Positions 761 through 58,537 of a DNA stretch of 64,000 nt are shown piece by piece (position 1 is the first letter of the stretch; the number at the start of each line of letters is the position of its first letter). This stretch comes from Cornus controversa. Its lineage: Eukaryota; Streptophyta; Magnoliopsida; Cornales; Cornaceae. The notes under the pieces were generated by a model. It saw nothing but the letters and a program-made list of their open reading frames with translations. It had not been told where the DNA came from and did no database searches. A program made the translations under genes and the position numbers. The stretch spans positions 55,137,836 through 55,201,835 of the forward strand of contig CM048849.1 of NCBI GenBank assembly GCA_026545225.1, given 5' to 3'.

Positions 761-1137
761 TGGGCTTCCTTGAGTGCTTTTTTGGTTTAAAAAAATATTA
801 TTCTTTATTTATTAGGTGTGATTTATCAATGATAGGAGTACTTAGAAGATGAAGGTTGGGTTTGAGTAGATTGAGGTGAAAAACGGGTCATCACAATTAA
901 TCCAATGAATAAATGGGTGCCATGTTTGAATTTTAAGAGTGAGCAAGCTCTGCTTAAATTAACTTGTTTTGAATACAAAATTTGCGAAAGGGCTATATCA
1001 CCAAGCTGCTTCTATTTACAATAGTCATTAAAAAAAAATTAAAAAATCCTAAAATAAAATTATAGTAGCTAGTCAAGTGTGACAATTTGATTTGGTAAAA
1101 CATGATCAAAAGAAAGAGAATATAAAGGCTTTAAACC
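761..1137. other. Intergenic, nothing recognised
   Basis: AT-rich DNA between the MULE fragment and the TDM1-like pseudogene. I see no coding frame, repeat border or RNA gene here. Confidence 0.5.
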
Positions 1138-1910
1138 ATAAGAGCTTCATCTGAAGATAGATGATTCGTATGCAAAATGATTTGAGCGTGCTATTCAGAT
1201 ATTCACTGAATTAGAATCAAACTCTAGTGTGAAGTGAAAGCCCATTCTTGGGGAAGAAGAGAGCGAGCCATAAGTAAATTCGATCTCTTCCCACATCCCT
1301 TGCGGAATATCTCAATTCAACCCAGGAACTCCAAAGCCTAAGCCAGCCTACTGTGGGAAATATGGAACACCACCACTACCAGGAATTTTGTGTAAAAGTA
1401 AGAAGAGTTGGGCAGATATGGTTGAAGAAGATGGACAAGAGTTATTAATGGAAATTCTGATTTTCCAGAAAATGCATGGGTTCACAAGAATCTTCATATT
1501 CTTTCCATACTCCAACTTCCAACATGATTAGTCAAACATATTTTCCACAGGATCAGATTGAGAATCTAAGCCAAAAGATTGAATCATTCAATTTGAAAGA
1601 TGGATATTATTATTATTATAGGCAACCTCAGAATGATCGTTCATCAAGGAATCAAACAGTGCAACGGACAGAGCAGATAGCTTATGTTTGCCACCATTGC
1701 CGAAGGAAGCCTTTAATTTTAAAAGTCATAACTCTTTGTTGTCTAATGCTTCATAAGATTTCATGAGAAGAAACAGATTACAGTTTTCCAGGACATAACT
1801 CCTGAAAGTCCACAACCTTTTGAATTTGATTTTATATTACACAAAAAAAAGAAAGAGAACATAGTGGTGTTCCTTGTGTTATTGCTGCATGTTCTGTACA
1901 TACAAGAGTA
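1138..1910 (+). pseudogene. Degraded partial copy of the TDM1/POLLENLESS3-like gene (last exon plus 3' UTR)
   Basis: The stretch is a diverged copy of the last exon of the intact gene at 34445-38163 in the same orientation. Matching blocks include AGAGCTTCATCTGAAGATAG (1140 vs 36596), the NLSQKIESFNLKDGYY coding block (1560-1615 vs 37858-37906) and the 3' UTR around CCTTGTGTTATTGCTGCATG (1872 vs 38278). It lacks an internal part corresponding roughly to 36756-37534, joined near CTTG/CAGAATATCT, and has smaller indels and frame breaks. Everything that matches lies inside one exon, so the copy cannot be classed as processed or segmental. It ends tail-to-tail with the zinc-finger exon at 2006. 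Non-functional. Confidence 0.85.
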
Positions 1911-2005
1911 ATCGGTATTATTCACATCTAAAACCAGTAATGTATATATGCAACATTTTACTTGAAGCAAGTAACAAAATAAAAGTACTGTACATGTACT
2001 ACTAT

Positions 2006-2254
2006 TTAGACAAGTTTCTTGTAGCACTTGTCTCTGTGCTCCAACATTTCTTTCGGATCATCAAAGCCATTGCCACAATGTGGGCAAAAAGCATTTATGT
2101 AATGGAAAGGGTCTGGGAGGTGGTTCTTACTCTCTTTTGATGCCTTAAACTTGTAATGTCCCTCCACCTTTTTTGAAGAATAGAAGAGTTTCTCCAATCC
2201 CTTGGCTTCGCAAGCAAAACACTTGAAGGTCGGAGGATTCTGGTAACTGAGACC
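2006..2254 (-). CDS. Last exon of the chimeric gene: zinc-finger tail
   Basis: Acceptor is ATGCAG|GGTCTC, in phase 0 with the preceding exon, and the stop is TAA at 2008-2006. The 82 residues contain FKCFAC (CxxC) with later histidines, then a C-x2-C-x12-H-x3-C pattern starting at CPHCGNGF and ending EHRDKC. This is a plausible C2HC finger. It is not part of OLA1. I do not recognise the parent protein of this tail. Confidence 0.6.
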   Translation of the reverse strand, partial: GLSYQNPPTFKCFACEAKGLEKLFYSSKKVEGHYKFKASKESKNHLPDPFHYINAFCPHCGNGFDDPKEMLEHRDKCYKKLV

Positions 2255-5200
2255 CTGCATAACGAAGATGTCCATCATCAACAACAGAGAGTAACAAGTG
2301 TTACTTTTCACAGCAGCAACTTGCAACAACTTACTCTGGCAAACAGCGGTGAGTAGACTGCACGGGGTTGGGAGCAGTTGCTAGTCAACATTTGTATGAT
2401 AGTACGCTTGATCTTCAAACAAAAAAATAGAAATTTTGTAATATAAGAATTCAAAATGATGTCCATTGCACTACACGTAATGATTTTATCATTTTAAGAA
2501 ACTAGTAAAATACGCAAGGGCTTCGCAACTGAAAACCTTTTTAAAGGACAATATGAAATGAAAACAACTTTTTTTCCATATATGACTATCAAATTATTAC
2601 TCTGTAAATATAAAATAAAGTCTCAAGTCTTAGTTTCCATTCTATGTTTGGAAACAATGTCCACGTATAGCATGTTTATATCAAATAAACCTTCAAAACA
2701 TATTATTTTGAGCTGACATTACATTTTTTATGAATAAGATGCGGAAGCCAAAGATGTTAATATAGAAAATGTATGGGAGAATTTGTAAAATTCAAAACTA
2801 GATAGTAATTTTGTTTCCAGATGTGCATAGAACACTTAAGTTTATTCACACAGCATCATATAGCCAAATAGACAGTTAAAACTACTATTTCCTCCTTTAT
2901 GGATTTCTTTCTATCAAAGAGTTATGTGGTTTTTTGGATGATAACAAGAACTTAATTTTCTGACACCATAAAGCTCTTCCTAGTTATGTGCTTGCAAAAT
3001 TACAAGAAATATGACCATTTTAGCTTCCAGTTACAGAGCAATAGTAAACAACACGTTTAGTGAGTTGCAGAGCATCAATTTCACTGAAAACAAGAAAACA
3101 CTACCAGCAATGTGTTTATATGAGTAAAAGTGGCTGTGAAAGCAATGCTGGACAATAGGATGAATGGCTTTTTTGATTGTGAAGTAACATCTGGATTGGT
3201 ATTGTAGTAAACTTAAGGAATACAGAGAGAAGTGTCCTAAAACAGAAAGCTAAGAGCATGAGCTTCACAAGATAATGAGAAAATAAAAAAATGAATCAGC
3301 AAGAAAATCCAAGCAATGCTTGCATATAGCTTAATAAAATAAGGGAAAAGAAAAAGGGAAAAAAAAATCAACTAAAATAATACCTCATCAGGGCCAGCAA
3401 TGAAAAAACTTATGGCATTAATGGCTGAGAAGCCCGTCTTTATGATCTTCGGAAGGGCACTGTAACGAAGTAAATCTAAGTTTTTTTTTTTTTTTTTGGT
3501 AATGAAGTAAATCTAAGTTAGCCAAGCAATTTATAAACTACACAACTAGCTTTTAACTAACCTTTTTACATTGTCTGAAATACTAATATAAAATTTTAAC
3601 TAACCTTTGTACATTGTTCTCCTCGCAATACTTTGCTGCTTCATCCGACAGCATATCAGCAATATTTCTCTCTAACGTGCAGCTGAAAGGGAAATGCTCG
3701 CCCCCATGCTCCTGCACCCTAGAATATCAAAGAAAAATGATATTAACTTCATTGAAACCCATACAGTTGGTAGAACTAATTAGCTGTAGTACTCGCTGAA
3801 TGTCCAATTGAAACAGATACAAAACTTCAGTCCTAATAGCTTAGAGAGAGACAGAAACACTCCTGTCAAATATGTGTGAGGCAACACAATTTTAAAACCT
3901 CAGCTGAGGGTCTACAACTTGGAAGCTTTTCAATTGATTTGAGGACCCACAAATTCTAGGATTTGGGTTACACGAAATATATCTATAGATCATGAAATTT
4001 ATCTATATATACATGCATATATTTTTTTTTCAACCATTGTAATTAGCGTCTTGCTATTTACACAGCACGTCCCAATAAACGAGATGTGTTATGGACAGAA
4101 CAGTTCCAGAAGAATCAGACCAGTTGTATCCCATAAAAAAAGGCAGTTTGATACTATACACTACTCGGGTGAAGGCATATGCTAAAAATCAATGGAAACT
4201 TATTTTGTGCAGTTTCAGTTTTATGTCAATGAAGAAGTAAAATAATAGGTCACATGGATAAATGGAAAAGGGAAAATGGCAATGCTAAATTGGAATATTA
4301 AAGAAAAGAAAAGATACTCAAATTATTACTTGCAAATCAAGAATAATCATAAAGTTCGTTAGGTCAATAGAACTTAGTTGGCAAATTTCATTCAAAACCT
4401 ACAGTCTATATGTTTGTATTTTAGCTTTTAATTAGTTTCCAAAAGGTAGTTAATTAGTTGAGATCCTTCTGTCTAAGGGCAAAAGTGGAATTCAAAGCAT
4501 TGAGTAAGTACAAAAAGGTAATTACAACTTTTGATCATGCACTCACCAAATTAATGTTCATGATTAGTATCTAAATTACATGTTTTGATCTATTGATCAA
4601 AGAAGATCAAGCGAAACCTGCAGGAATGAGGTTCAAATAGGTTTTAATTTGGCTTTGGTTGGTACTTGTTCTAATGTTATTCATTATCATTTTCCTCATT
4701 TTTGGGAGTCGAAGAAATAGTAAAATGAACATTACTTTTTTATCCCTATTATTAGCTCTTGCATTATAAATTGTTTATTAGTACTTCTTACAAAACATCA
4801 GCTTAATTTCCTCATTTTTGGGAGTTGAGGTGTGATAAGTGCACAAAACATGTTATTTTATATATCAAAATAAGTCTTTAATTACTCTTTTACTTTATTT
4901 AAATATTCTTATCTTTGCATTTTGTGTTTTATAGGGGTTGATTTCCAAATAAGAAGAAAAGCAGCAGAAAAGGCCTAAAAAGGATATATATAGCCAAAGA
5001 TAAACATCAGAAGAATTGTAGAAGAGATGGTATTCTATGCAATCTACTTCACAAGAGGTCTCAAGTTCAAAACTTTGCAAAATACTTTTTACGTCTGCAG
5101 TCCAGAATTCAAATTAAAGATATGGAGATCAAATATTAGATTTTTAAATTCAAAATTTTGTATTTTGAATTTTTGTTTTTGAATTTTGAATTTTGTATTT

Positions 5201-8200
5201 CAAATTTGTATTTTGAATTTTGTATTTTAAATTTTTCCCACCTAAACCATTCCCCTCTAACTCTATAAATAGGGGGTCTTAGGGGATGGTGAAGGGAGTT
5301 AGAAATTGTAGAGAAATTATAGAAAAAAATAGTGTATTTATTTTATTGATTCAATGATGAGTAGTAGTTTCATTTATATTTGTTTGTTTTTTATTAATAT
5401 GCAAGCGTAAACATCCTTCTCAAGGGAGTGATGAAGCCACCATGGCTGAAGTATAGGTAAGTTGTTTTATTTTCTTGTCTACTTTTTCCTCCCAAGAGCA
5501 TTCTTCTACTCTTCTATTCTGGATTTTATTTTCTAAAAGTAGAGGAAGGATTCTTCGTGTTTGCCAAATAATGGTAATTCGAAGAATGCCTACCTCTGTT
5601 TACCTAGCCAATGTGCATCAGATTAAGTAAAAGAATGTCTCTCTCATATATAATCAAGTCATTCTTTTTTATTCCATATTTTCCTTCATCTTTCCAAGTT
5701 CTAATTGGATTGGTGAAGTGTATTGGTTATTGGAGGAAAAACTAGATAAGAATATAAAAAAAAAACTTTATTTATATGGATCCATGGTGGTGAATTCTCT
5801 TTCCTTGAGATTTTTTCCATCATTTGATCTAAGACATTTAATATTAGTTTTTATTATTAAATAAAAAATCAGAATTTTATTTTTTTAAATATTCATTTTT
5901 TCATCTCAAGAGAATTAGGTTTTGAAGTTTAGACTTGTTATTGATTCTCACTTGAGAGTGGTTCGACCCTGCTTACTACTATACAGTTTTTAGTAAAGTT
6001 TTTGCAGGTTTTATTATTTTTTGTACGAAGTGTAGAAAAGCAACGACAAACATCCATTATTCTACACTCGTCAAATGGCGCCGTTGCCGGGGAAGAATTT
6101 CCACTATTTTACACTCGTCAAATGGCGCCGTTGCCAAATCAAGTTTGAGAATTCGAAGCCCAAATATTCAAGACTACAATTTTTTTGGGAGCCCACCCTA
6201 ACTTTCTTTCCCTCCCTTTTATTTTTATTTATTATAGTTTTTGTTTCTTTTATTATTATTATTTTTTCTTCTTGAAAAAAAAAAAAAACAAAAAAGAAAA
6301 AAAAAATATAATATTTTTATATATATATTTTTTCCATGACAAGTTCTTATGATGCACTTCTTCTATAGATGCCACCATTCGTTGCTCTTCCAAAGGAAAT
6401 AATAACGTCATCCAGGTTCTTATGATGAATTGCTTCTGTTGATGCCACCATCACACATTCTTAGAAGAGGAACAATAGCTGTCATCCAGGTAAGTACCTA
6501 ATTCTTTTACATCATTTTTCTTTTCTTTTTAGATTAAGAAAACATAATTTTTTTTTAGGTTGATAACTTTCACATGCGAACTGTAGGATAGAATAACTTA
6601 GAAATATCCCTAAGGTCACACTTTCTTCATTTTTTTTTTATTTTTTTTTTTGTTCTTTTTTTTTATAAAAAAAAAAAGAAGAAGAAAGATCACACACTCA
6701 CTCATTTTTTATTTTTATTTTTATTGCTTATTTTGTTTGTACATCTTTAAATTAACATTTTTTTGTGAATTTTAATTTAGGATTTTTGTAGTAATGCTCT
6801 TTTTATTATTTAAAAATATTTATAAAAGTAGAGCTAACTCTTGGTAACTCCAGTGAGCACCTTCCAACTTCACAATGTCTAGGAAAGTTCTGTCTAAGGA
6901 GTGTGGACGTACCGTCATTAAGCAGGCCAAGCGCCTCTCCACACTTTCCTGGGAACTTTCCTGGTTGTGTTGTTGGCAGACCTTAACTGGTAATCCTCGA
7001 GTTACTTTAATAAACAAAAAAAACAAAAATTGTAGGAGTTGTAATTTTATTTATTTATTTTTTATTTGTTGAAAAAAATAAGAAACAAAAATTGCATTTT
7101 TTCATGCATAGTATTGAACTTTTCATGTGATTACTAATGCTTCATTTTTGTTTAATGAAAAGTTAAAGTAAATCAATTCATTCTGATTAAGGTAATATTC
7201 TTTCAACCTTCTATTTGTGCTTAATCGTTATTTTGTCCAACATTGAGGACACTATTGAGTTTAGGTTTGGGGGTATGACATTAAATTTCTAAATTTTCAG
7301 AAAAAGCGTTGAATTTGCAATTTTTTTGAAAAATGTTTTGTGATAATCGTAATTTTCACACTATGATTTGATTTTTTTTATATTAAATGTGTATAAATTT
7401 TAAAAATAAAATCTTTAACCTTTAGTGCATTAATAAGTTCATAAAAGTTAAGATTTTATCCTATCTTTCAGTTAGAACAATTTCATGAATTTCTAAAACT
7501 CAGAAGAAAAAAAAAATTCACTAAAGCCCCGTAATACGATTCGAAATTGATAAGTGATTGCATGTTAAAGATTTGACGAATAAAAGTGGAGATTTAACCC
7601 AGTGAGGTATTGTACCATTCTTTTTATTTTGAGGGTTATATGCTAATTACTCTATTTTTTCTTGAAATCCACATAATTTTGTTGATTAGTCTCATTATTT
7701 CATTCTTTTGGTCAGATATTAAGAATTCACCATATTATGCCACATAATTTGTTTTTTAAGCTCATGTATGTTGAAGAACTATACATATCCCTTAGAAATG
7801 ATTTTTGGCCATCTTTCATTATTTGAGCCTTTCAAATTTTTTTCTTAGTTATGAATTACCACTTGTTAACCAGTTGAACTTTTTGCCCATTCTTTCTTTT
7901 ATAACCATATTTTTTGTTACGGTTTTTCGAGAATGAATGTGATAATCAGTGAAGCTTTTTGGTCTAGCCTTTCTTTTATAACTATTTTTAGGTTTCCGAG
8001 AATGGATGTGATCAATGTACAAGAGGGTGAAGAAAAAAAAAAGAGAAGAAAAAAAAAAAAAAAAAGGAGGGAGTATAATTGTTGATTAGATTTTGAGAAG
8101 TGTATATAAAAAGAAGTGAAATAGAAAGTATCCAATTGACAAAATTTTGGAAGAAAAAGTTGAAAGTAATATGCTCTAAGTGAGTTAGTTCTTCCCAAAC

Positions 8201-11200
8201 ATTCTCGAATACACCTTACCATTATCATTATCACTTTTTTTTATCTTCCTTTTACCTAAAGTTACATCCTAATAAAAGTCCTTTTTGATCTTAAGGATAG
8301 TATAGTTCGGATATGGACATGACTGAGTATATTGTTGTGTGGTATAAATTCTTAATATTTGATATTCCTTTCATGAGACCAATGTATTTTCTTGAAAAAT
8401 TCGTTCTTTGTTGAAAATATGTGAGGTAATTTGCATTTGTTCTACATTATTCTACTCACATATACTTGAGTGCAAAATTAGCCAATCTCTTAGTGTTCAA
8501 TTTTGAGTGAAATATCATAAGTGAGATTTGAAATCAAAGCTAATTTTCTAAGAAAATCTAAAATGCATTTGCTTTAAAATTGAGAAGTATATTATTGGTG
8601 GCTATTCACACACACACTCTGAGTCAAGAATAGTAATGAAAATTTTTAACTTTTGAATAGTATTTAATCTTTTCTTTTAATTTTTTATTTCGCACTAAAG
8701 TAGAATGATTGAGTTATTCTTGATTTATACACATTAATAGAAAAAAAAAAAATCTTTGAGTGTTAATTACCATTTTTTGATGTTTGTGGGTATCATTATT
8801 GAAACCCTCACGAGGCTATAGCTCGTCCACTAGGGGTAACCTAGGGGTTTAAGGCCTTATTGCATATGGTAAATGCAATCGAAACAGCCTGCGAAAGTGG
8901 CACATCTTTAGTTAGGAGTTAAATAAAAGTAGCAGTTTTGTGCTCTAATATCTTTTGCTTGTATTTGCTAGAGGACTAGCAAAAGCTCGTTTGGGGGTAA
9001 TTTGATAAGTGCACAAAACATGTTATTTTATATATCAAAATAAGTCTTTAATTACTCTTTTACTTTATTTAAATATTCTTATCTTTGCATTTTGTGTTTT
9101 ATAGGGGTTGATTTCCAAATAAGAAGAAAAGCAGCAGAAAAGGCCTAAAAAGGATATATATAGCCAAAGATAAACATCAGAAGAATTGTAGAAGAGATGG
9201 TATTCTATGCAATCTACTTCACAAGAGGTCTCAAGTTCAAAACTTTGCAAAATACTTTTTACGTCTGCAGTCCAGAATTCAAATTAAAGATATGGAGATC
9301 AAATATTAGATTTTTAAATTCAAAATTTTGTATTTTGAATTTTTGTTTTTGAATTTTGAATTTTGTATTTCAAATTTGTATTTTGAATTTTGTATTTTAA
9401 ATTTTTCCCACCTAAACCATTCCCCTCTAACTCTATAAATAGGGGGTCTTAGGGGATGGTGAAGGGAGTTAGAAATTGTAGAGAAATTATAGAAAAAAAT
9501 AGTGTATTTATTTTATTGATTCAATGATGAGTAGTAGTTTCATTTATATTTGTTTGTTTTTTATTAATATGCAAGCGTAAACATCCTTCTCAAGGGAGTG
9601 ATGAAGCCACCATGGCTGAAGTATAGGTAAGTTGTTTTATTTTCTTGTCTACTTTTTCCTCCCAAGAGCATTCTTCTACTCTTCTATTCTGGATTTTATT
9701 TTCTAAAAGTAGAGGAAGGATTCTTCGTGTTTGCCAAATAATGGTAATTCGAAGAATGCCTACCTCTGTTTACCTAGCCAATGTGCATCAGATTAAGTAA
9801 AAGAATGTCTCTCTCATATATAATCAAGTCATTCTTTTTTATTCCATATTTTCCTTCATCTTTCCAAGTTCTAATTGGATTGGTGAAGTGTATTGGTTAT
9901 TGGAGGAAAAACTAGATAAGAATATAAAAAAAAAACTTTATTTATATGGATCCATGGTGGTGAATTCTCTTTCCTTGAGATTTTTTCCATCATTTGATCT
10001 AAGACATTTAATATTAGTTTTTATTATTAAATAAAAAATCAGAATTTTATTTTTTTAAATATTCATTTTTTCATCTCAAGAGAATTAGGTTTTGAAGTTT
10101 AGACTTGTTATTGATTCTCACTTGAGAGTGGTTCGACCCTGCTTACTACTATACAGTTTTTAGTAAAGTTTTTGCAGGTTTTATTATTTTTTGTACGAAG
10201 TGTAGAAAAGCAACGACAAACATCCATTATTCTACACTCGTCAAATGGCGCCGTTGCCGGGGAAGAATTTCCACTATTTTACACTCGTCAAATGGCGCCG
10301 TTGCCAAATCAAGTTTGAGAATTCGAAGCCCAAATATTCAAGACTACAATTTTTTTGGGAGCCCACCCTAACTTTCTTTCCCTCCCTTTTATTTTTATTT
10401 ATTATAGTTTTTGTTTCTTTTATTATTATTATTTTTTCTTCTTGAAAAAAAAAAAAAACAAAAAAGAAAAAAAAAATATAATATTTTTATATATATATTT
10501 TTTCCATGACAAGTTCTTATGATGCACTTCTTCTATAGATGCCACCATTCGTTGCTCTTCCAAAGGAAATAATAACGTCATCCAGGTTCTTATGATGAAT
10601 TGCTTCTGTTGATGCCACCATCACACATTCTTAGAAGAGGAACAATAGCTGTCATCCAGGTAAGTACCTAATTCTTTTACATCATTTTTCTTTTCTTTTT
10701 AGATTAAGAAAACATAATTTTTTTTTAGGTTGATAACTTTCACATGCGAACTGTAGGATAGAATAACTTAGAAATATCCCTAAGGTCACACTTTCTTCAT
10801 TTTTTTTTTATTTTTTTTTTTGTTCTTTTTTTTTATAAAAAAAAAAAGAAGAAGAAAGATCACACACTCACTCATTTTTTATTTTTATTTTTATTGCTTA
10901 TTTTGTTTGTACATCTTTAAATTAACATTTTTTTGTGAATTTTAATTTAGGATTTTTGTAGTAATGCTCTTTTTATTATTTAAAAATATTTATAAAAGTA
11001 GAGCTAACTCTTGGTAACTCCAGTGAGCACCTTCCAACTTCACAATGTCTAGGAAAGTTCTGTCTAAGGAGTGTGGACGTACCGTCATTAAGCAGGCCAA
11101 GCGCCTCTCCACACTTTCCTGGGAACTTTCCTGGTTGTGTTGTTGGCAGACCTTAACTGGTAATCCTCGAGTTACTTTAATAAACAAAAAAAACAAAAAT

Positions 11201-14200
11201 TGTAGGAGTTGTAATTTTATTTATTTATTTTTTATTTGTTGAAAAAAATAAGAAACAAAAATTGCATTTTTTCATGCATAGTATTGAACTTTTCATGTGA
11301 TTACTAATGCTTCATTTTTGTTTAATGAAAAGTTAAAGTAAATCAATTCATTCTGATTAAGGTAATATTCTTTCAACCTTCTATTTGTGCTTAATCGTTA
11401 TTTTGTCCAACATTGAGGACACTATTGAGTTTAGGTTTGGGGGTATGACATTAAATTTCTAAATTTTCAGAAAAAGCGTTGAATTTGCAATTTTTTTGAA
11501 AAATGTTTTGTGATAATCGTAATTTTCACACTATGATTTGATTTTTTTTATATTAAATGTGTATAAATTTTAAAAATAAAATCTTTAACCTTTAGTGCAT
11601 TAATAAGTTCATAAAAGTTAAGATTTTATCCTATCTTTCAGTTAGAACAATTTCATGAATTTCTAAAACTCAGAAGAAAAAAAAAATTCACTAAAGCCCC
11701 GTAATACGATTCGAAATTGATAAGTGATTGCATGTTAAAGATTTGACGAATAAAAGTGGAGATTTAACCCAGTGAGGTATTGTACCATTCTTTTTATTTT
11801 GAGGGTTATATGCTAATTACTCTATTTTTTCTTGAAATCCACATAATTTTGTTGATTAGTCTCATTATTTCATTCTTTTGGTCAGATATTAAGAATTCAC
11901 CATATTATGCCACATAATTTGTTTTTTAAGCTCATGTATGTTGAAGAACTATACATATCCCTTAGAAATGATTTTTGGCCATCTTTCATTATTTGAGCCT
12001 TTCAAATTTTTTTCTTAGTTATGAATTACCACTTGTTAACCAGTTGAACTTTTTGCCCATTCTTTCTTTTATAACCATATTTTTTGTTACGGTTTTTCGA
12101 GAATGAATGTGATAATCAGTGAAGCTTTTTGGTCTAGCCTTTCTTTTATAACTATTTTTAGGTTTCCGAGAATGGATGTGATCAATGTACAAGAGGGTGA
12201 AGAAAAAAAAAAGAGAAGAAAAAAAAAAAAAAAAAGGAGGGAGTATAATTGTTGATTAGATTTTGAGAAGTGTATATAAAAAGAAGTGAAATAGAAAGTA
12301 TCCAATTGACAAAATTTTGGAAGAAAAAGTTGAAAGTAATATGCTCTAAGTGAGTTAGTTCTTCCCAAACATTCTCGAATACACCTTACCATTATCATTA
12401 TCACTTTTTTTTATCTTCCTTTTACCTAAAGTTACATCCTAATAAAAGTCCTTTTTGATCTTAAGGATAGTATAGTTCGAATATGGACATGACTGAGTAT
12501 ATTGTTGTGTGGTATAAATTCTTAATATTTGATATTCCTTTCATGAGACCAATGTATTTTCTTGAAAAATTCGTTCTTTGTTGAAAATATGTGAGGTAAT
12601 TTGCATTTGTTCTACATTATTCTACTCACATATACTTGAGTGCAAAATTAGCCAATCTCTTAGTGTTCAATTTTGAGTGAAATATCATAAGTGAGATTTG
12701 AAATCAAAGCTAATTTTCTAAGAAAATCTAAAATGCATTTGCTTTAAAATTGAGAAGTATATTATTGGTGGCTATTCACACACACACTCTGAGTCAAGAA
12801 TAGTAATGAAAATTTTTAACTTTTGAATAGTATTTAATCTTTTCTTTTAATTTTTTATTTCGCACTAAAGTAGAATGATTGAGTTATTCTTGATTTATAC
12901 ACATTAATAGAAAAAAAAAAATCTTTGAGTGTTAATTACCATTTTTTGATGTTTGTGGGTATCATTATTGAAACCCTCACGAGGCTATAGCTCGTCCACT
13001 AGGGGTAACCTAGGGGTTTAAGGCCTTATTGCATATGGTAAATGCAATCGAAACAGCCTGCGAAAGTGGCACATCTTTAGTTAGGAGTTAAATAAAAGTA
13101 GCAGTTTTGTGCTCTAATATCTTTTGCTTGTATTTGCTAGAGGACTAGCAAAAGCTCGTTTGGGGGTAATTTGATAAGTGCACAAAACATGTTATTTTAT
13201 ATATCAAAATAAGTCTTTAATTACTCTTTTACTTTATTTAAATATTCTTATCTTTGCATTTTGTGTTTTATAGGGGTTGATTTCCAAATAAGAAGAAAAG
13301 CAGCAGAAAAGGCCTAAAAAGGATATATATAGCCAAAGATAAACATCAGAAGAATTGTAGAAGAGATGGTATTCTATGCAATCTACTTCACAAGAGGTCT
13401 CAAGTTCAAAACTTTGCAAAATACTTTTTACGTCTGCAGTCCAGAATTCAAATTAAAGATATGGAGATCAAATATTAGATTTTTAAATTCAAAATTTTGT
13501 ATTTTGAATTTTTGTTTTTGAATTTTGAATTTTGTATTTCAAATTTGTATTTTGAATTTTGTATTTTAAATTTTTCCCACCTAAACCATTCCCCTCTAAC
13601 TCTATAAATAGGGGGTCTTAGGGGATGGTGAAGGGAGTTAGAAATTGTAGAGAAATTATAGAAAAAAATAGTGTATTTATTTTATTGATTCAATGATGAG
13701 TAGTAGTTTCATTTATATTTGTTTGTTTTTTATTAATATGCAAGCGTAAACATCCTTCTCAAGGGAGTGATGAAGCCACCATGGCTGAAGTATAGGTAAG
13801 TTGTTTTATTTTCTTGTCTACTTTTTCCTCCCAAGAGCATTCTTCTACTCTTCTATTCTGGATTTTATTTTCTAAAAGTAGAGGAAGGATTCTTCGTGTT
13901 TGCCAAATAATGGTAATTCGAAGAATGCCTACCTCTGTTTACCTAGCCAATGTGCATCAGATTAAGTAAAAGAATGTCTCTCTCATATATAATCAAGTCA
14001 TTCTTTTTTATTCCATATTTTCCTTCATCTTTCCAAGTTCTAATTGGATTGGTGAAGTGTATTGGTTATTGGAGGAAAAACTAGATAAGAATATAAAAAA
14101 AAAACTTTATTTATATGGATCCATGGTGGTGAATTCTCTTTCCTTGAGATTTTTTCCATCATTTGATCTAAGACATTTAATATTAGTTTTTATTATTAAA

Positions 14201-17200
14201 TAAAAAATCAGAATTTTATTTTTTTAAATATTCATTTTTTCATCTCAAGAGAATTAGGTTTTGAAGTTTAGACTTGTTATTGATTCTCACTTGAGAGTGG
14301 TTCGACCCTGCTTACTACTATACAGTTTTTAGTAAAGTTTTTGCAGGTTTTATTATTTTTTGTACGAAGTGTAGAAAAGCAACGACAAACATCCATTATT
14401 CTACACTCGTCAAGGTGCATGTCTAATTCTCTTTAAATGTGCAGTACCAATTCCATTTCTTTTTTAATCAATTGAAATTTGGGTTGAAATTGTGGTATTT
14501 GCTGCCTGATCCAGGTACATGCATATCAAAATGTCCTGAGATATGAACTTCTTTAATTAGGATGTGTTTTTTCTCTTTAAAACTGCAGGTAACTTAAAGA
14601 TATATTTGTTGAAAATGGGTTTTCACTATGAACAGGTATCATGAGGCATACTAAGAAGGGAAGATGTACTATGGGTTCAATGACAAGTGGGTCTCAAAAG
14701 TTGCTACAACCACCACCTCATCGAGGTCTACCCAATTCCAGTCAACAACAGAGTGCAGCAATGCATACTCAACAAGAAAATCATCACACCAGCTATATGC
14801 AAACTCAAGAACAGAATCAGCGCACTATCTATATGCAAACTCAGCAGCAGAATCAGCGCATTAAGAAGGGAAGATGTACTTTGGGTTCAATGACAAGTGG
14901 GTCTCAAGAGTTACTACAACCACCACCTCATCAAGGACTACCCAATTCCAGTCAACAGCAGAGTGCAGTGATTCATACTCAACAAGAAAATTATCACATT
15001 AACTATATGCAAACTCAAGAACAGAATCAACGCACTTTCTCTATGCAAACTCAACAAATGTTATCTACAAACAGTCAGTCAAGCTCCACTCAACAACAGA
15101 ATCAGCACACCAATTATATACAAACTCAGCAGCAGAATCAACGCCCTTTCTCTACAAACAATCAGTCAAGCTCCAGTCAACAACATCCCGTTTCATCTCA
15201 TGATTTTACTAGTGCAGGTATTATAGTTATATCAATGTGTGTGCCTATTTTTATTTCATTTGGTCAATAACTTTCACAATAATAAACATAATCATTTCTA
15301 TATATTTGTATATAGAATCATCTAGAATGAAACGGAAAACTCGAGGACCCACATTGTGCACTGACATATGGGGAATGCCTCTTACACAACGTATTCTTGT
15401 CCCTTTTAATGCTTGGGGTCAGCCCATGGAGACATGTTGCCCCTTACTTTTACTGATATACCAGATCTGCTAAAAGAGGACGTTTGGGACCTAGTTTTGG
15501 TATGATTTATGAATTTATTTCCTTTTCTTTATATTATTAATGATGTTAACATTGACTATAATTTATTTGAATTTAACGTAGCACAAGTTTGACATTCCAG
15601 ACCTTGCGAAAATGTGGGTGTTACAGTCGACTGGTAGGAAGTGGAAGGATTTCAAGTCTCGATTAAAGAAGAAGCACTACAGAACGCATGATATCAATGT
15701 GGAGCAAATCACATATTGTGATCTTCAAGTTATACCTGAGCAATGGGGCTCTCTAGTTGACTTTTGGAACTCAAGCAAGGGGCAGGTAAGTATGCTGCAT
15801 TTTTTCAAGTGATGAATATGGCAAGTACCATTGGGATAAACCATTCCTTGTGGTAGAGTTTTCCACTTCTCTTTTATGCTTCTCTTATAAATTCTTTGGC
15901 ATCCTCTTCTGAAACAATTAATTTGCTTTCTTAATTTGTCTTTGTTTGATGATTTTAGAAGCGAAGTCATACAAATATAGTCAATCGTTCCAAGCAAGTC
16001 AACACCCATGTAGCAGGGTCGAAAAGCTTTGCTCGTTTACGTGAGGAGGAGGTACATTTTAATTTTCAGCTGCATATGTGAGTCTTGTTAATTTTCAGCT
16101 GCATACGTTATCCTCATATAATTATTTATATGAGGATAGCGTAAGAGAAGGCCAAATGGAGATGAACCGACGCGGGCTGATATGTATATACTTACACACA
16201 CACACGGAAGGATGGGCAGCCTATGGATGAAGAATCCGCAAAAATTATTGTATGTTAATTCTATAGTTTTTTGTTATTATTAGTCTTTTATTTGATTTTG
16301 TAAAGCATAATTATATAGGTGATTGATTTTGCAGGAGAAGCTTAATGAACTTTCAAGTCAGCAACCAGAAGTTTCACAAACCACTGTTACTAAAGATGAC
16401 ATTTTCTCCAAGGCAATGGGCCAAGAAAGACGCGGCCATGTTCGCACATATGGATTAGGTCCATCCCCACCAGAACTTTGGGGCGAAACTCCTACTCGTC
16501 TTAAGACAATGAGGATGGCTTCGGATGTAAGAAGGGCTGCAGATGAAGAGGTGCGCAATCTAAAGGAGCAAATGCAGACAATGACGCAAATGGTAATCAA
16601 ATTGCAGCAACAGATGGATTCTAGGGATAACCATAACCAACAATTTGCCCCAAGTCAACCTTATCGTACTCGACCTGAGCCTACTGATCCCCATTCGGTA
16701 ATGTTGTAATCATAGTTGGTTTATATTCTAAGTGCTATAGTATTAATATGTTCATTTTTACAGATTAATATTTATAATTTTTAGATATAGTGTTCCTTTA
16801 GTTAACTGTATACTCTCATAGGTTTGTGATGAAGCTGGCACTTCTCATGCTTCACAAAATCCCAAAGCATCATCCTCTTCATCTTCTCGTTTACCTTCAT
16901 CACAGGTAATGTTCATATGGTTATTGAAGTCTGGCATATCAGTATCTTAAAATAACTTGGATTTGTGCTTTGTTTATTTTAAAACAAGCTTTAAATTAAA
17001 CTATTGTACTTAATGTTGCAACTTTCAAGACTATCCAAATACACACAAGCCATTCATTAAAGTAGATAAAGGCAATATTTGGAAATTATTGTACTTGCTC
17101 CTTGTTTGTTGTTTCTGAGTTGGCAAACTTTTAGCTAAGAACTGCAGTGGCCAATGAAGCTTATGGTTCTTTTTGTTAAACTCAATGACGGTCACTTCTC

Positions 17201-17964
17201 TCTTGATTTATATCAAAATTTTCTATTTTCTGTTCAGTTTAATTTGAATGTTCACAGTGTATGTGATTCTTCTATAAAATTTTCTATTTTCCTGTTTATA
17301 TCGAATTAATTCTAATATTTTATCTCTATTTGATTTGTATAGGGTATGAGGGAAGTTCTTTTGTTAAGCCCCCGAACACTTGATGTAGTAATTGTCGCTC
17401 GAGGACTGATTTTGAGCAATATACAAAAGTGAGGGGAGAGAGAAACTCAATAACTATGTAAGAAAAATACAGAACATACCACCAATCATGAATCTTGGAG
17501 AAAAATACAGAACATGTTTTTCTCTGATAGTCTTTCTCATTCAAGTTCACCTGCACATCAAGAATATAAATAATTAAAGTCAAATTCCAACCCACACCAC
17601 AACGGAAATACCTTGCAACAAGACATCAATTAAAAAAAAAATCAAATACAAGAACTGGAAGCAGATATACCTTGTCTGCCAAAGGAATTTTTGACCGATC
17701 CAGATTGAAGTCAAACAAATTGTTCTTAGCCTATTGAAGAAATACATTTAATGTTAATCATAGCCATTTAATTGTAATCATAGACATTAATTAAAAAAAA
17801 TGAAATACAAGAACGGCTGATATACCTTGTCTGCCAAAAGAATTATTGGACGAGTGAGATTGAAGGCAAAGATCTTCTTAACCTATAGAAGAGATAATCA
17901 AGAAGAGCACAAATCTCTATTCAAAAATAAGATAATCATTAATTAATAAATATACCTTCATCAT
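2006..17964 (-). CDS. Chimeric seven-exon gene: OLA1 (Obg-like ATPase) middle segment fused to a C2HC zinc-finger tail
   Basis: Exons on the minus strand: 17964-17956, 17882-17826, 17730-17671, 17550-17483, 3718-3605, 3459-3384 and 2254-2006. All introns have GT-AG ends. Lengths 9+57+60+68+114+76+249 = 633 nt, giving an uninterrupted frame of 210 codons. Exons 4-6 encode VNLNEKDYQRK, WVQEHGGE, DEAAKYCEEN and LPKIIKTGFSAIN through to AGPDE. This is the OLA1/YchF region from the altered G4 motif (NxxE) to the start of the TGS domain, in the family order and with the expected split Trp codon. The P-loop and switch regions and most of TGS are absent, so ATPase activity is not expected. Exons 1-3 are unrelated to OLA1. 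Exon 7 adds two CxxC zinc motifs. Intron 4 is about 13.8 kb and filled with transposons. It may be a young chimeric gene or an expressed pseudogene. I infer the joined model and have no transcript evidence. Confidence 0.6.
2255..3383 (-). other. Intron 6 of the chimeric gene
   Basis: About 1.1 kb of AT-rich DNA between AGPDE and the zinc-finger exon. I see no coding remnant of the missing TGS domain and no clear transposon border. In OLA1 the next residues should be VKCWQ, and these are not found here. Confidence 0.45.
3384..3459 (-). CDS. OLA1-derived exon (LPKIIKTGFSAIN ... AGPDE)
   Basis: Minus-strand exon bounded by TTACAG and GTATTA. With the AG from the preceding exon it reads SALPKIIKTGFSAIN, then AISFFIAGPDE, which matches the conserved entry to the OLA1 TGS domain. 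It is phase 0 at its 3' end. Confidence 0.8.
3463..3518. repeat. Poly-T tract flanked by a 15-bp direct repeat
   Basis: A run of about 19 T lies between two copies of GAAGTAAATCTAAGT (about 3466 and 3505), inside the 145-bp intron 5. The layout resembles a target-site duplication around the stub of a poly-A-tailed retroposon insertion, or local slippage. Confidence 0.5.
3605..3718 (-). CDS. OLA1-derived exon (VQEHGGE ... CEENNVQ)
   Basis: Bounded by ATTCTAG|G and CAAAG|GTTAGT. It encodes VQEHGGEHFPFSC, then LERNIADM, then DEAAKYCEENNVQ. It matches OLA1 closely, with one residue fewer than the family in the segment after GGE. The first G completes the Trp codon begun in the exon at 17483. Confidence 0.85.
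3719..4832 (-). other. Intron 4, 3'-proximal part (pre-insertion host DNA)
   Basis: Non-coding AT-rich sequence between the OLA1 exon and the retroelement array. The phrase CCTCATTTTTGGGAGT occurs twice (about 4694 and 4811). Nothing else is recognised. Confidence 0.5.
4833..6073 (+). repeat. LTR 1 of the array
   Basis: TG...CA-bounded, 1241 bp. It contains a TATA-like CTATAAATAG (about 5262-5271) after a long run of short repeated TTTTGAATTTTG-like words. Confidence 0.9.
6074..6133 (+). promoter_or_regulatory. Primer binding site, present twice in tandem
   Basis: ATGGCGCCGTTGCC occurs directly after the LTR end and again about 47 bp later. Each copy is preceded by ACACTCGTCAA, so the LTR end plus primer site is partly duplicated. 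The same arrangement is repeated at 10244-10303. It is complementary to the 3' end of plant tRNA-Asp. Confidence 0.75.
6074..9002 (+). mobile_element. Internal region 1 of the array (no coding capacity seen)
   Basis: About 2.9 kb, with long T and A runs and a short direct repeat around GATGCCACCAT (about 6368 and 6440). The small frames here consist of low-complexity sequence and match no retroelement protein. Confidence 0.8.
9003..10243 (+). repeat. LTR 2 of the array (shared middle LTR)
   Basis: Copy of LTR 1 at an offset of 4170 bp. It serves as the 3' end of the first unit and the 5' end of the second. Confidence 0.9.
10244..13171 (+). mobile_element. Internal region 2 of the array
   Basis: Near-identical second copy of the 2.9-kb internal region, again starting with the doubled tRNA-Asp primer site and ending in a G-rich polypurine tract. 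Confidence 0.85.
13172..14412 (+). repeat. LTR 3 of the array
   Basis: Third LTR copy, followed directly by the AGGTG target duplication and host sequence. Confidence 0.9.
14641..17432 (+). pseudogene. CACTA (En/Spm)-type Transposase_24-like gene, decayed
   Basis: Exon-like blocks with GT-AG borders: 14641-15217 (Gln-rich), 15316-15499, 15582-15785, 15959-16051, about 16138-16251, 16335-16697, 16822-16905 and 17343-17432. Diagnostic phrases are RGPTLCTDIW, FNAWGQP, MLPLTFTDIPD, DIPDLAKMWVLQS, KWKDFKSRLKKKHYRTHD, RKDGQPMDEESAKI, a coiled coil about EEVRNLKEQMQTM, and REVLLLSPRTL. This is the usual order in plant transposase Ptta/En/Spm proteins, which accompany the CACTA TnpD-type enzyme. The frame shifts within the second exon between GQP and GDMLPL, and an AC-repeat expansion near 16190 moves the frame again, so a full protein is unlikely. 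No CACTA terminal repeats were found. It lies inside intron 4 of the minus-strand chimeric gene. Confidence 0.75.
14651..15070 (+). repeat. In-frame 210-bp tandem duplication in a Gln-rich exon
   Basis: The segment starting TAAGAAGGGAAGATGTACT at about 14652 recurs at 14862, an offset of 210 bp (70 codons), with a few differences. Within each unit a decapeptide like YMQTQQQNQR repeats further. The product would be a low-complexity Gln/Asn-rich N-terminus. Confidence 0.85.
17483..17550 (-). CDS. OLA1-derived exon (VNLNEKDYQRK ... KIHDW)
   Basis: Acceptor is GTGCAG|GTGAAC. It encodes VNLNEKDYQRK, then SKIHD and the first two bases of Trp, the OLA1 G4 region. The donor is either GATTG|GTGGTA or, three bases later, GGTG|GTATGT. 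Both keep the frame, the second adding one Trp and fitting the donor consensus better. Confidence 0.75.
17671..17882 (-). CDS. Two tandemly duplicated short exons of the chimeric gene
   Basis: Exon 2 (17882-17826, VKKIFAFNLTRP then LADK) and exon 3 (17730-17671, AKNNLFDFNLDRS then LADK) are similar in sequence and both end GCAGACAAG|GTATAT. Flanking intron words such as AAATACAAGAAC are shared too. Both are phase 0, so duplication keeps the frame. The source of this exon is unknown. Confidence 0.6.
17956..17964 (-). CDS. First coding exon (ATG ATG AAG) of the chimeric gene
   Basis: ATGATGAAG|GTATAT is preceded on the minus strand by a GA-rich leader (about 17965-18045), typical of plant 5' UTRs. 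The start is inferred. It is the only in-frame ATG between that leader and exon 2. Confidence 0.45.
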
Positions 17965-18250
17965 TGCAACCTTCTTGCTCTCTCTCTCTATAAAATTCTC
18001 TCTCTAGTCTCTCTCTCTAAAATTCTCTGTCTCGTCTCTCGCTCCGAGCTCTCTGTGGAAAAATTACGCGCCTCTGTGCTCTTATTCAAATATTTGTAGA
18101 ATATTGGATGGACTGGGCTCGAGATTTAACTGCAGGCCCAGTCCATCAACTTAACCCAAAAGTTGGGTTTGACTTCAGAGGAAAACTGGATGGGGGTAAG
18201 GGTAAGGGTAAGGGCCGGGTCTAGTGTTGAACTAAGTGGGCATGTTTAGG
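17965..18250 (-). promoter_or_regulatory. GA-rich leader and probable upstream region of the chimeric gene
   Basis: AGAGAGAG blocks on the minus strand at about 17970-18040. Upstream lie GGCCCAGTCCA words (18110-18150) and a GGTAAG repeat at 18196-18212. No clear TATA box was found. Confidence 0.35.
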
Positions 18251-34444: not shown

Positions 34445-37400
34445 ATGTGGACGGCCGACAAGAATTCTCCGGCGATGGGTTTCTCGACGCCTCCTCCGAC
34501 GCGGAAGTCGAAGCGGATGCCTCCAATGATGCCGGCGTCGGAGAAGAAGTGGTCCTCGCCTCAGGCCAAAGCTGATCTTTTCCATGTCATTCACAAGGTG
34601 CCCGCCGGGGATTCTCCGTACGTCAGGGCCAAACATGTTCAGGTAATAGAATTTTCAGGTCTGTAATGAATTACATTAAAAGTTTTTTGTATGTTTTTGG
34701 TCGGTCTGGGAATCTCATGTGAGTAACAATGCGGTCTTTGTGTTTTCCAAGAATTTCAATTTTCTCTGTTCATTTGTTCGCTGTTATTTTTGTATTTCCA
34801 TGTTTTCGCTCTCTCTAGAATGTTCTTTATCTCTATGATTTTTTATGCTCAATTATTTTGTGTTTGTTTACCATCTGCTTTTGATGTTTCAAGCTGCCCC
34901 TTCTGGTATTTTCTTGCTATTCTTGTATGAAATTATTTTACTGGAAAATTATGTTTTCTTGAGCCTTTGAAATGGAAAGATTTGTAAAACACCCTGAATT
35001 TCTGTTAGACTTTGTTGATTTTTTAGTCATATAGATTGCCCATTTACACTTTATTGTAATGATTGATTAAATTCATAGGTTTTTGCATCGTTTTACTTGT
35101 TTGAGTTATTGATCTTCACCTCGTCTTTATTGCAGTTGAAAAACTTTTTTTATTATAACAGATTAAATTACTCCACTTTATTCTTCAGCCAAAACATAAG
35201 TGATTATTCCTCTATTTCTTCATGTTTACATGCATGGTTTTGACACTTCAATTTTCAAATAACAGTTGATAGAAAAGGATCCAAGTAGGGCCATTTCCCT
35301 GTTCTGGGCTGCTATAAATTCTGGGGATCGAGTTGATAGTGCCTTGAAAGACATGGCAGTTGTGATGAAACAACTGGATCGATCCGATGAGGCAATTGAG
35401 GCAATTAAATCTTTCCGTCATCTATGCCCCCATGAATCTCAGGAATCTCTTGACAACGTTCTTGTTGAACTTTACAAGGTAAAGCACCAGTTGTCTTGAA
35501 CACATATCTACTACGTTTTATTTCCTGCAAATTACTAGATTTTTTTATTTTCAGTATAGCATTAGCAATAAGTCTGGATAGAAATAATTTTATTTTGGGC
35601 TTTTATGCGGATATGTGTATGAATTTAGTCAATTTTCTCTGCAAGGCAAAGCAAAAGTCCTTTTGAAAACCCATATATTTTGTTTTCCATACTATGCAAA
35701 TTAATAGATTTTTTATATTCAGTATAGATCAGCAACAATCTGGATATAAGTAATTTTATTTTGGGTATTTATGCTGATATGTGAGGTAATAATTAGAGTG
35801 AGTCATTATTCTCCTTGCCTAAGCTTTGTTAGCTAAAATATGTAAAAAGGTTGTAGAGATGGGTAGAGCTATGGCATAAAAACAAGTCACACCGTTTAGG
35901 GAGGAAATCAGAGAATGATAATAATTGAAGGTTTATTGTTTATTTTTTTATCTTTTCTGAATTTTCCATTTCATTTTCTCTGATAAAGACTATGGACCAT
36001 AGATTTTCAATTTTTCCAATAATAGGGATATTCTCTTGTTATTGAAGCATGTTTGTGAGTGTCCATGTGCATGTTTTTGTAGAGATCTGCTAGGATCGAA
36101 GAACAGATTGAAATGCTTCAACTCAAATTGAAGCACATTGAAGAAGGTATAGCATTTGGTGGGAAGAGGACAAAGACAGCTAGGTCTCAAGGGAAGAAGA
36201 TACATGTCACAATTGAACAGGAGTACTCAAGGTGGACACTGCATTGATTTATCTTTTCTGAACGCTTATTTCTTATTCTTTTCAAAGTTTTCTGACTTAC
36301 AGCCTTCTCCAAATGCAGGATATTGGGAAACTTGGCCTGGGCCTACTTGCAGCAAAATAATTATAAATCTGCTGAAGAGCTTTATAGGTATGTTCTTTAT
36401 GTAATACGTACTAAGAAGTTTACATACATACGTAGCATTAAGTTTGTCAAAAGAAGGGTACTTTCTCATAGAAAATATTTTGATGCAGAAAAGCACTTTC
36501 TCTTGAACCGGATAAAAACAAGCAGTGCAATCTGGCTATCTGCTTGATGCACATGAACAGGATGACAGAAGCTAAATTTTTGCTTCAAGCCATAAGAGCT
36601 TCATCTGAAGATAGACAGATGGATGATTCGTATGCTAAATCATATGAGCGTGCTATTCAGATATTCACTGAATTAGAATCACACTCCAGTGTGAAGCCCA
36701 TTGCTGGGAAAGAAGAGTGCCATAAGGAAATTCTAACTCTTCCCACATCACTTACTTGTTCTGACAATGGAATTTCAAAAGTTGCATCATATGGATCAAG
36801 AAATGGTTCACTGTCTTCTCCAAAGACTTCATTTGCCGATAAATTGAAAGGATGTTACACTAGAAACCAATATGAAAGAAGGGCAGCTGATTTTGGCAGC
36901 AGAAGCAAGGACAACAGGATTAATATGGATGGAAGAGAAGTAGGTTCTACTGGCAAGAATGTGTTTGCTTCTCCACTTCCTGCTAGGGAAATTCCTAAAG
37001 TTCCATTTACACAACCCAGATGTTCATGGTCATTCAGTAATGGAAATCAGAGGAGGGCGTTGGTGGGAGATGATGCAGTTGGCTGTAATCGTAAATTATC
37101 ATTTGAGCAATCTACCCAACCAGGTTCCACGAATGGACTGCCAAAAGCAGTATTGCAGAATTTAAAAAGTTGTTCACCGTCTACTAGTCAAGATTGGAGA
37201 AAGCGGGCATGGGGAACTAGTGCTGAAGTGAACAATGAATCTGTTCTACAGCCTATTGTTTTTGGAGACTTGAAGATGAATTCATGGGGACCTAGTGTTG
37301 AAGTGAACAATGAATCTGTTCTACAGCCTATGGTTTTTGGAAACTTGAAGATGAATTCATGGGGAACTGGTGGGCAGAAGAAATTGGCAATGAAAGAGAG

Positions 37401-38163
37401 TAATTCGCCTATGGAATCAGCTGTTGATATTAATTATACGAGAGCAACGGAAGCTTCCTCTGATGGAGATTGGGATCGGAGTTCCAAAAATACTATTGCA
37501 GGTGGTGTGGGGTTGACAGACACAGTTGAACCTTTTGCAGAATATCTGAATTCAACCCAGGAACTCCAGAGCCTAAGCCAGCCTACTGCAGGAAATCTGG
37601 AACACCCCCAGGAATTCTCTCTGTGCAAAAGTAAGCAGAGTTGGGCAGATATGGTTGAAGAAGATGAACAAGAGTTATTAATTGGAAATTCTGATTTTCC
37701 AGAAAATACATGGGTTCACCACCCATCTCAAGAATCATCATATTCTTTTCATACTCCGAGCAAGTGTTCTGATGATTGGAATGGTGGAGAAGAATTTAAT
37801 GATGAAAATTTGAATTCCAACGTTATTAGTCAAACATATTATCCACAGGATCAGATTGAGAATCTAAGCCAAAAGATTGAATCATTCAATTTGAAAGATG
37901 GATATTATAGCCAACCTCAGAATGATGCTTCATCAAGGAATCAAACAGCGCGACGTTCTTTGTGTTTTGATCAGAACAAGAAACCAGACAGAGCAGATAG
38001 CTTCTGTTCATCACCATTGCCGAAGAAGGCCTTGAATTTTGAAGGTCATAACTCTTTGCTGTCTAATGAAAGGGAGAGCACTTCGGGGAGTGGTATAAGA
38101 TTGATGAGGAGAAACAGATTGCAGGTTTTCCGGGACATAACTCCTGAAAGTCCACGACCTTGA
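34445..38163 (+). CDS. TDM1: TPR protein of the POLLENLESS3/TDM1 (MS5) family
   Basis: Five exons: 34445-34642, 35266-35478, 36083-36231, 36319-36387 and 36489-38163. Together they are 2304 nt, giving 767 aa, with GT-AG borders throughout. In Arabidopsis TDM1/MS5/POLLENLESS3 ends meiosis after the second division by acting with the APC/C. Related members act in sulfur-deficiency responses. Residues about 40-250 form the conserved helical TPR region: KADLFHVIHKVPAGDSPYVR, DPSRAISLFWAAINSGDRVD, a coiled coil about EEQIEMLQLKLKHIEEG, then ILGNLAWAYLQQNNYKSAEE. The N-terminus has FSTPPPTR, a minimal CDK site at Thr15, at nearly the position of the regulatory Thr16 in Arabidopsis TDM1. The long, poorly conserved Ser/Asn-rich tail ends in a basic RLMRRNRLQVFRDITPESP, again a T-P site. 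The start is the ATG at 34445; no better upstream ATG is in frame. Paralogue versus orthologue rests on synteny. Confidence 0.88.
37210..37372 (+). repeat. Tandem repeat inside the TDM1-like tail
   Basis: A unit of about 84 bp, encoding EVNNESVLQP, then VFG, LKMNSWG, occurs twice in frame (from about 37226 and 37301), adding about 28 residues of tail. Confidence 0.85.
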
Positions 38164-57433: not shown

Positions 57434-58229
57434 CTAGAATGCTGATTGAAGGCGATCAATTATGCTCTTATCCACTTGGAAAGCCTTTGCAAGAACATCA
57501 TCAGAAATGGAAGGGTTTGATCCGAAAACAACATTTGCTATAGTGTTGACACCAGGGTTCTGGCTGCTCAAGCCGGAGATTGAGACTGCATTTCCATGTC
57601 CCAGATTTCGCTGGAAGTGAACAAGTCCTACTGGGAAGACAAACACATCACCCTTTTGAAGGACCTTTGAGATGAACCGGTTTTCTGGGTTGGTGGTCAC
57701 AAAACCTACCTCAAGGCTGCCTTCTAATACTGTCAGTACCTCTGTGGCACGAGGATGCGTATGAGGAGGGATAACACCCAATGGTGCATAGTCTATGCGT
57801 GCCACTGAGATTCCGAGGGTGTTAAGGCCGGGTAATTGAGCGACAGTGACAGGGGTAACCCTAGAACCAAGGGGGTTCGATGTGTTGCCAGCTACATGGA
57901 GACCACTGAAGGAGAAATGATCAGCTTGTACAAGCTTAGGATCCTTGCAAGCATGACCATTTATTCGAGCTGCACAGTTCACAAAATAAATAAGAAAAAA
58001 AAACATACAATTTTGAAGAATTTATTCATCAAAGTAAATAGTTAGAATTATTGAAAGTTATGATTCAAAATAAAGTTGTTTATAGTATGCAATGTTGTAT
58101 GTAATTTGGTTCCTGACCTGAGCTAGTTAGGTCTGCTACGCAGAAATCTTGCAAGGGACTGGGCTCAAAGGCAGTGACCAGAGCAAATGAAAAAGCTAGC
58201 AAACTCAACAAGAAAATGTAGTTTGCCAT
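57434..58229 (-). CDS. Germin-like protein 1 of the cluster
   Basis: Two exons (58229-58118 and 57969-57434) separated by a 148-bp GT-AG intron; 648 nt, 215 aa, the usual germin-like length. Germins are secreted Mn-binding cupins of the cell wall; some have superoxide dismutase or oxalate oxidase activity. A signal peptide ([20 protein letters not shown]) precedes [10 protein letters not shown]. Cys30 and Cys45 fit the conserved disulphide. Box 1 is [12 protein letters not shown], giving His107, His109 and Glu114. Box 2 is [16 protein letters not shown], giving His155. All four metal ligands are present. Asn66 (NTS) is a likely glycosylation site. The start has a TATA box about 80 bp upstream. 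Which enzyme activity it has cannot be read from the sequence. Confidence 0.95.
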
Positions 58230-58306
58230 CTAAATCTTCAAGATAAGCTATTCAATTAGAGTAGTTTATCCAGTTTGAGGTGCAAAACTAGCATTTCATG
58301 CAATTC

Positions 58307-58314
58307 TTATATAG
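58307..58314 (-). promoter_or_regulatory. TATA box of germin-like 1
   Basis: Minus-strand TCTCTATATAAGAA, about 80 bp before the ATG. Confidence 0.65.
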
Positions 58315-58537
58315 AGATGGTGGAAGTAGCTGATATGCAATAATCAAATGAAGAAGGAAGAAGAAGTTATCACTAAGGATAATTTGCCGTCTAATATACA
58401 AATTAATGCAGTTACATGAAAACTATGACATAATATGCGTCTCTGTATTCCAAATCTCCAGTAATTTTTCTTATCTTCCAGAAATGATTCATTTGCCATA
58501 TTATGTTAAGCATGTCATTCCAAATCTGTGTGATACT

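Follow-up and report, generated by a model that had tools for sequence, protein, structure and literature searches.

Does a minus-strand reading frame that joins a slice of the ATPase OLA1 to new 5' exons and a zinc-finger tail belong to a new chimeric gene, built by exon capture as the original prediction proposed, or is it what is left of a decaying copy? This question is raised by a locus in a window of 64,000 nucleotides of Cornus controversa (the whole stretch of DNA analysed here, C5:55137836-55201835), and the genome searched for relatives of its parts comprised 772 Mb in 61 contigs. The signs lean to a gene fossil over a working new gene. We consider it probable that the locus consists of a decayed, partial and inverted OLA1 duplicate lying beside an older zinc-finger element, from which no functional fusion protein would be expected.

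The seven-exon model

The seven exons described in the original prediction are all present (Table 1). All six introns follow the GT-AG rule, and the exons total 633 nt, corresponding to 210 codons and a stop codon with no internal stops. The acceptor at 2254 is canonical and the zinc-finger exon has a phase compatible with exon 6; thus, the OLA1 piece and the zinc-finger exon could, as far as the letters go, be spliced into a single reading frame. For exons 1-3, and for linking the three parts, the evidence consists of consensus splice sites and the open frame. Among the 74 AG sites found 3' of exon 6, the eight with the longest frame-0 openings were compared: six of these, including 2254, enter the zinc-finger frame at differing points, and the other two open different frames (2033, 90 codons; 3249, 72 codons).

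Table 1. Coordinates of the candidate exons and of the surrounding features, in window positions.
Feature	Position	Strand	Description
Exon 1	17964-17956 (9 nt)	-	Sequence ATGATGAAG; no relatives found
Exon 2	17882-17826 (57 nt)	-	Tandem duplicate with exon 3, flanking intron included
Exon 3	17730-17671 (60 nt)	-	Second copy of the exon 2 unit
Exon 4	17550-17483 (68 nt)	-	Copy of OLA1 coding exon 7; G4 motif NLNE retained
Exon 5	3718-3605 (114 nt)	-	Copy of OLA1 coding exon 8; net 3-nt deletion
Exon 6	3459-3384 (76 nt)	-	Copy of OLA1 coding exon 9; last residues GPDE
Exon 7 (zinc-finger exon)	2254-2006 (249 nt)	-	82 codons and stop
Segment holding the zinc-finger exon	1905-2368	-	464 bases; unique in the genome at the DNA level
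Homology to parent OLA1 (C5:55066453-55074061)	2455-17602	-	In blocks, broken by transposons and missing stretches
LTR-internal-LTR-internal-LTR array	4833-14413		LTRs at 4833-6074, 9003-10244 and 13172-14413
Older transposon-like repeat	~4643-17419		94-97% like pieces of C9:33913049-33916935
Plant En/Spm transposase fragment (Transposase_24)	16323-16709	+	PF03004, E 1.6e-6, 28.8 bits (cut-off 28.7)

Origin of the OLA1 slice

The 86 residues encoded by exons 4-6 matched residues 229-314 of Arabidopsis OLA1 (7y9i, E 3.8e-35) and residues 230-315 of rice YchF1 (5ee0, E 3.8e-32), plant OLA1 being the closest among four solved structures, and on these alignments the OLA1 homology is certain. In addition, the NLNE of exon 4 fits the form (N/T)(M/L/V)xE, which PMC8959515 gives for the G4 motif of the YchF type. 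A tblastn search with Arabidopsis OLA1 (identical to 7y9i) located the full gene that the original prediction suggested looking for: the parent OLA1 lies on the plus strand at C5:55051950-55074465, its 12 coding exons accounting for residues 1-394. About 66 kb from it on the same contig, and on the opposite strand, the window copy corresponds to parent exons 7-9 with none earlier, and its start falls inside parent intron 6. The splice positions of exons 4-6 are those of the parent, apart from a 3-nt insertion at the exon-4 donor, and the order and phases of the slice were thus correctly recognised. An alternative exon-4 donor 3 nt downstream (17480) is also in frame, making two same-phase donors possible.

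The predicted absence of the nucleotide-binding P-loop was borne out, since OLA1 residues before 212 found no match in the window by tblastn (E up to 1), the P-loop (G1) and G3 motifs included. Likewise, the window copy does not encode a complete TGS domain: parent exons 10-12, with the remainder of TGS, are missing, as had been anticipated. The window lacks the stretches that would hold parent exons 10 and 11, and parent exon 12 lies just beyond the end of homology at 2455. The intron pieces flanking exons 10 and 11 are still there; therefore, at least these two exons appear to have been lost after the copying.

The retained part was also altered. A 17-base run, ATGTTCTGTATTTTTCT, in the middle of exon 4 (17515-17499) recurs downstream in the exon's own intron (17477-17461); the exact run is absent from the parent gene, where a version with one mismatch stands in the intron. 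Relative to the parent, this part of exon 4 shows a net gain of 3 nt, and the stretch 17499-17515 looks like a local templated overwrite from the adjacent intron. Further, the sequence FFTAGPDE, common to Arabidopsis, rice and human OLA1, reads FFIAGPDE in the window slice. Residues 229-314 make up an incomplete G domain, and the proposed preservation of an OLA1 surface is not supported.

The Pfam model of the YchF C-terminal domain matched four places in the genome, namely two in the parent, one on C3 that belongs to a more distant YchF-type gene, and one in a relic at C5:56.74 Mb that contains a stop. A second local OLA1 fragment consists of intron pieces only.

The 13.7-kb intron

The 13.7-kb intron between exons 4 and 5 is mostly made up of transposons. 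Its three-LTR array is enclosed as a whole by the target-site duplication AGGTG (4828-4832 and 14414-14418), and the two overlapping LTR-internal-LTR units share 99.96% identity over 5412 bases. Identity of the three LTRs along all 1242 bases suggests that the intron grew to its present size recently. The family to which these LTRs belong is abundant (44 matches from 40 scored of 1990 candidates), and three LTRs of the same family at 4.07 kb spacing in C5:51033354-51042734 suggest a second three-LTR array at 51.03-51.04 Mb. Directly after the first LTR stands the primer-site-like sequence TGGCGCCGTTGCCGG, which we take to resemble a tRNA-Asp primer site; one internal region of the array was scanned, for open frames only.

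The array is nested within the older repeat that carries the Transposase_24 fragment, and the C9:33913049-33916935 copy of this repeat, aligned in three pieces, has 6 bases where the window holds the array. That a transposase fragment is present in the intron could be taken to favour the idea that an En/Spm-like or other capturing element brought in the OLA1 exons. However, colinear OLA1 homology continues on either side of the repeat, which argues that the repeat entered the OLA1 copy and was not its carrier; we therefore rejected capture by a transposon, and regard it as very improbable.

Within the transposon-like repeat, we also observed a Q/N-rich open reading frame of 209 codons at 14641-15270 (plus strand) containing a 210-base tandem repeat, which had no Pfam match at E 0.01.

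The zinc-finger exon and its neighbourhood

At E <= 0.001, both the DNA of 1905-2368 and the 82-residue exon as protein matched only themselves in the genome. A search at E up to 10 with the longer zinc-finger frame also matched C9:37218557-37218778 (E 0.0025); the reciprocal search recovered the window (E 0.0019), and a search from the C9 relative found a third one, containing a stop, at C9:37129295-37129465. The window and C9 sequences share 27 of 66 residues, with identity at all five Cys and at four of five His (P 0.0009), and their Smith-Waterman score of 105 compares with a maximum of 63 in 5000 shuffles. The C9 relative (C9:37218563-37218802) is an 80-codon open frame beside a local duplication of ~40 bases and has no Pfam match over a cut-off.

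The ligands follow the pattern C-x2-C-x12-H-x3-C in the second half of the exon, and C-x2-C with conserved histidines in the first half. The exon scored below the Pfam cut-offs of zf_UBZ (15.2 bits; cut-off 25.6), zf-C2H2_4 (14.6; 27) and zf-C2H2 (12.5; 25.2). In the PDB (E up to 10), seven among the eight matches listed are C2H2 zinc-finger chains, aligned over a short stretch. Bacterial and archaeal genomes gave 34 matches to the zinc-finger pattern and no confirmed relatives, and the segment had no match in the rest of the local sequence at low stringency. Judged from the C9 comparison, the zinc-finger exon is a real, old, ligand-conserving coding sequence, so this element of the original prediction now stands on firmer support than the letters alone had given it.

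Concerning the arrangement of the locus, a second local copy (C5:55088830-55089458) has window position 1904 joined straight to about 2366-2369, with no zinc-finger segment. Past 1904, the window contains ~25 bases that resemble, as judged by eye, the 3' flank of the gene with an open frame at 36544-38163. Because the window keeps these flank bases, the second copy probably lost the zinc-finger segment and the window order would be the older one. The segment would accordingly have been in place before that loss, which, with the inverted local duplicate and the intron remnants around its lost exons, speaks against exon capture as the route. The opposite possibility, that the zinc-finger segment had been inserted here, was likewise discarded, as the segment itself holds the ~25 flank-like bases.

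Window positions 770-1930 (plus strand) hold a stop-bearing fragment of the 36544-38163 gene, and a further copy, also with stops, is found at C5:55083501-55084979. The open frame at 36544-38163 has no Pfam match; its product presumably resembles POLLENLESS3-like proteins. Elsewhere in the window, three similar tandem open frames of 149-190 codons lie at 57434-62867 (minus strand), which we assume to be germin-like proteins from their appearance.

Decay or constraint on the OLA1 exons

With the overwritten stretch excluded, exons 4-6 differ from the parent at 26 of 237 bases (Ka 0.083, Ks 0.291, ratio 0.29); the ratio is 0.30 when all 85 ungapped codons are used (37/255 bases) and 0.33 for exons 5 and 6 alone. 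The 13 amino-acid changes are fewer than the neutral mean of 18.2 in 5000 simulations (P = 0.012), and 41% of the neutral simulations were likewise free of stops. No stop or frameshift occurs in the three OLA1 exons and their net length changes are all multiples of 3, compared with 7 of 31 intron indels. Yet the exon divergence (29/251) is no lower than that of the introns (161/1823) in the BLAST alignments of window and parent, a non-colinear block being excluded from the intron figure.

Using the relic at C5:56.74 Mb as an outgroup, nine of the 12 substitutions in exon 5 fall on the window side and one on the parent side, with two unassigned. Outside exon 5, only codon 64 is clearly a parent-side change (S in the parent, P in Arabidopsis and rice); at codon 2, the outgroup proteins differ (L in Arabidopsis, M in rice). 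Codon usage in exons 1-3, and likewise in exons 4-6, scored at the 95th percentile of 365 null ORFs; the training set included one out-of-frame piece (ola_e2, 168 nt), and a tubulin piece had been left out of it. The evidence for selection is therefore equivocal, and we read the OLA1 exons as having been under relaxed or past constraint, with no proof either way.

Alternative explanations

A working young chimeric gene, whose 210-residue protein, incapable of nucleotide binding, begins with exons 1-3, continues through the OLA1 slice and ends in the zinc-finger exon, would account for the open frame, the GT-AG introns, the parental splice sites, the low Ka/Ks with its deficit of amino-acid changes, the codon scores and the conserved zinc ligands. 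Duplication of a parental gene followed by fusion is, moreover, the main pattern in rice according to PMC9199173. We nevertheless consider this gene unlikely: the slice is an incomplete domain diverging no less than the introns, and the 13.7-kb intron with its recent transposons would have to be spliced out. For the proposed 5' end, querying the genome with the protein of exons 1-6 (E up to 10) gave no relative of exons 1-3 outside the window, the single weak match off C5 (C10, E 0.59) spanning residues 35-79, mostly OLA1. The DNA of 17600-18250 has five partial matches elsewhere (47-77 bases), all in the GA-rich leader and exon 1, and the 5' region gave one 28-base match to the rest of the local sequence at low stringency. 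The copies forming exons 2 and 3 differ alike in exon (11/57 substitutions) and intron (12/73). A specific form of such a gene, a translated chimera of half an OLA1 G domain and a plant double zinc finger outside the Pfam models, under weak purifying selection and with an intron filling with transposons, seems slightly more doubtful still. Of the original proposal of a new gene by exon capture, the slice, the frame and the zinc finger thus remain and the capture route is not supported; a new gene is possible and not favoured.

The zinc finger might instead be a small gene of its own, to which the OLA1 piece upstream is irrelevant. It could consist of one exon of 84-90 codons, which starts with an ATG at 2278, 2275 or 2260 and ends with the stop at 2006, or have different exons on its 5' side. 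Its frame is open upstream of the acceptor and contains these in-frame ATGs, so that the sequence does not oblige it to belong to the seven-exon gene. The stop-free run of 124 codons in all has P = 0.007 in a 550-base segment and 0.028 in 1905-3384, and exons 1-6 had no match in the 30 kb around the C9 relative. However, homology to that relative starts a few residues past the proposed acceptor, fitting an exon boundary, and the codon-usage score of 0.068 bits per codon (87th percentile of the 365 null ORFs) is exceeded by one antisense frame (0.103). We therefore hold an independent gene to be improbable.

The reading of a decayed OLA1 duplicate beside an older zinc-finger element is preferred because OLA1 over residues 1-394 sits on the same contig, because blockwise intron homology runs to 2455 with parent exons 10-12 in the missing stretches, because exon divergence is not below intron divergence, because most exon-5 substitutions fall on the window side, and because the adjacent partial copy of the 36544-38163 gene has stops and the second OLA1 fragment is intron-only. 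Counted against it are the intact frame of the OLA1 exons, the Ka/Ks of 0.29-0.33 with fewer amino-acid changes than under neutrality, the codon scores and the compatible phase of the zinc-finger exon.

Proposed history and significance

On this reading, OLA1 from intron 6 onward was copied locally, in inverted orientation, beside a locus with an older zinc-finger coding element. Such a copy, having no P-loop exons, would be unable to act as OLA1 and would drift. Internal deletions probably removed exons 10 and 11, while exon 12 was either truncated away or deleted. Exon 7 may have been partly overwritten with sequence from its intron, and nested transposon insertions enlarged the intron that separates exons 7 and 8. 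The three remaining exons presumably keep frame and splice sites because the copy is not very old, and perhaps also because it was under constraint for some of that time. The locus may be transcribed, although a functional fusion protein is not expected, and the zinc-finger exon would belong to a separate or ancestral gene. The duplication, the absence of the lost exons, the nesting of the insertions and the homology of the zinc finger are demonstrated by the sequences; the succession of events, the way in which exon 7 was overwritten and the absence of function are inferred.

Since one contig contains the parent together with a second local copy and a more distant relic, the locus offers a snapshot of partial duplicates dying or becoming new genes. 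Its zinc-finger exon hints at a small family of proteins below the cut-off of every Pfam model. If the fusion were expressed, a universally conserved ATPase domain would have been reused without its nucleotide-binding part; if not, the locus warns that an open frame over a decayed copy and a transposon-filled intron can mimic a gene.

Comparison with known systems

Our literature search found no paper joining Obg-like ATPase, chimeric gene, zinc finger and plant, and among the matches listed for OLA1/YchF pseudogenes or duplications, titles and starts of abstracts named no plant OLA1 copy. Compared with OLA1/YchF (7y9i, 5ee0), the window copy shares residues 229-314, the exon boundaries of the genome's own OLA1 and the G4 motif; it differs in having no P-loop, G2, G3, coiled-coil domain or complete TGS, and is changed at residues common to the Arabidopsis, rice and human proteins. 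The Cys/His spacing of the zinc-finger exon is like that of C2H2/C2HC fingers (zf-C2H2, zf_UBZ), whereas its scores lie below the Pfam cut-offs. The Oryza fusion genes described in PMC9199173 likewise place a fragment of a duplicated parent beside another coding segment in a compatible frame; in contrast, the window copy shows decay and is at most a candidate fusion. Finally, tandem LTR-retrotransposon structures are common in plants and an origin by single insertion has been proposed for them, according to PMC11899658. The array in the window, with its three LTRs, common internal regions and one flanking target-site duplication, fits such a single insertion.
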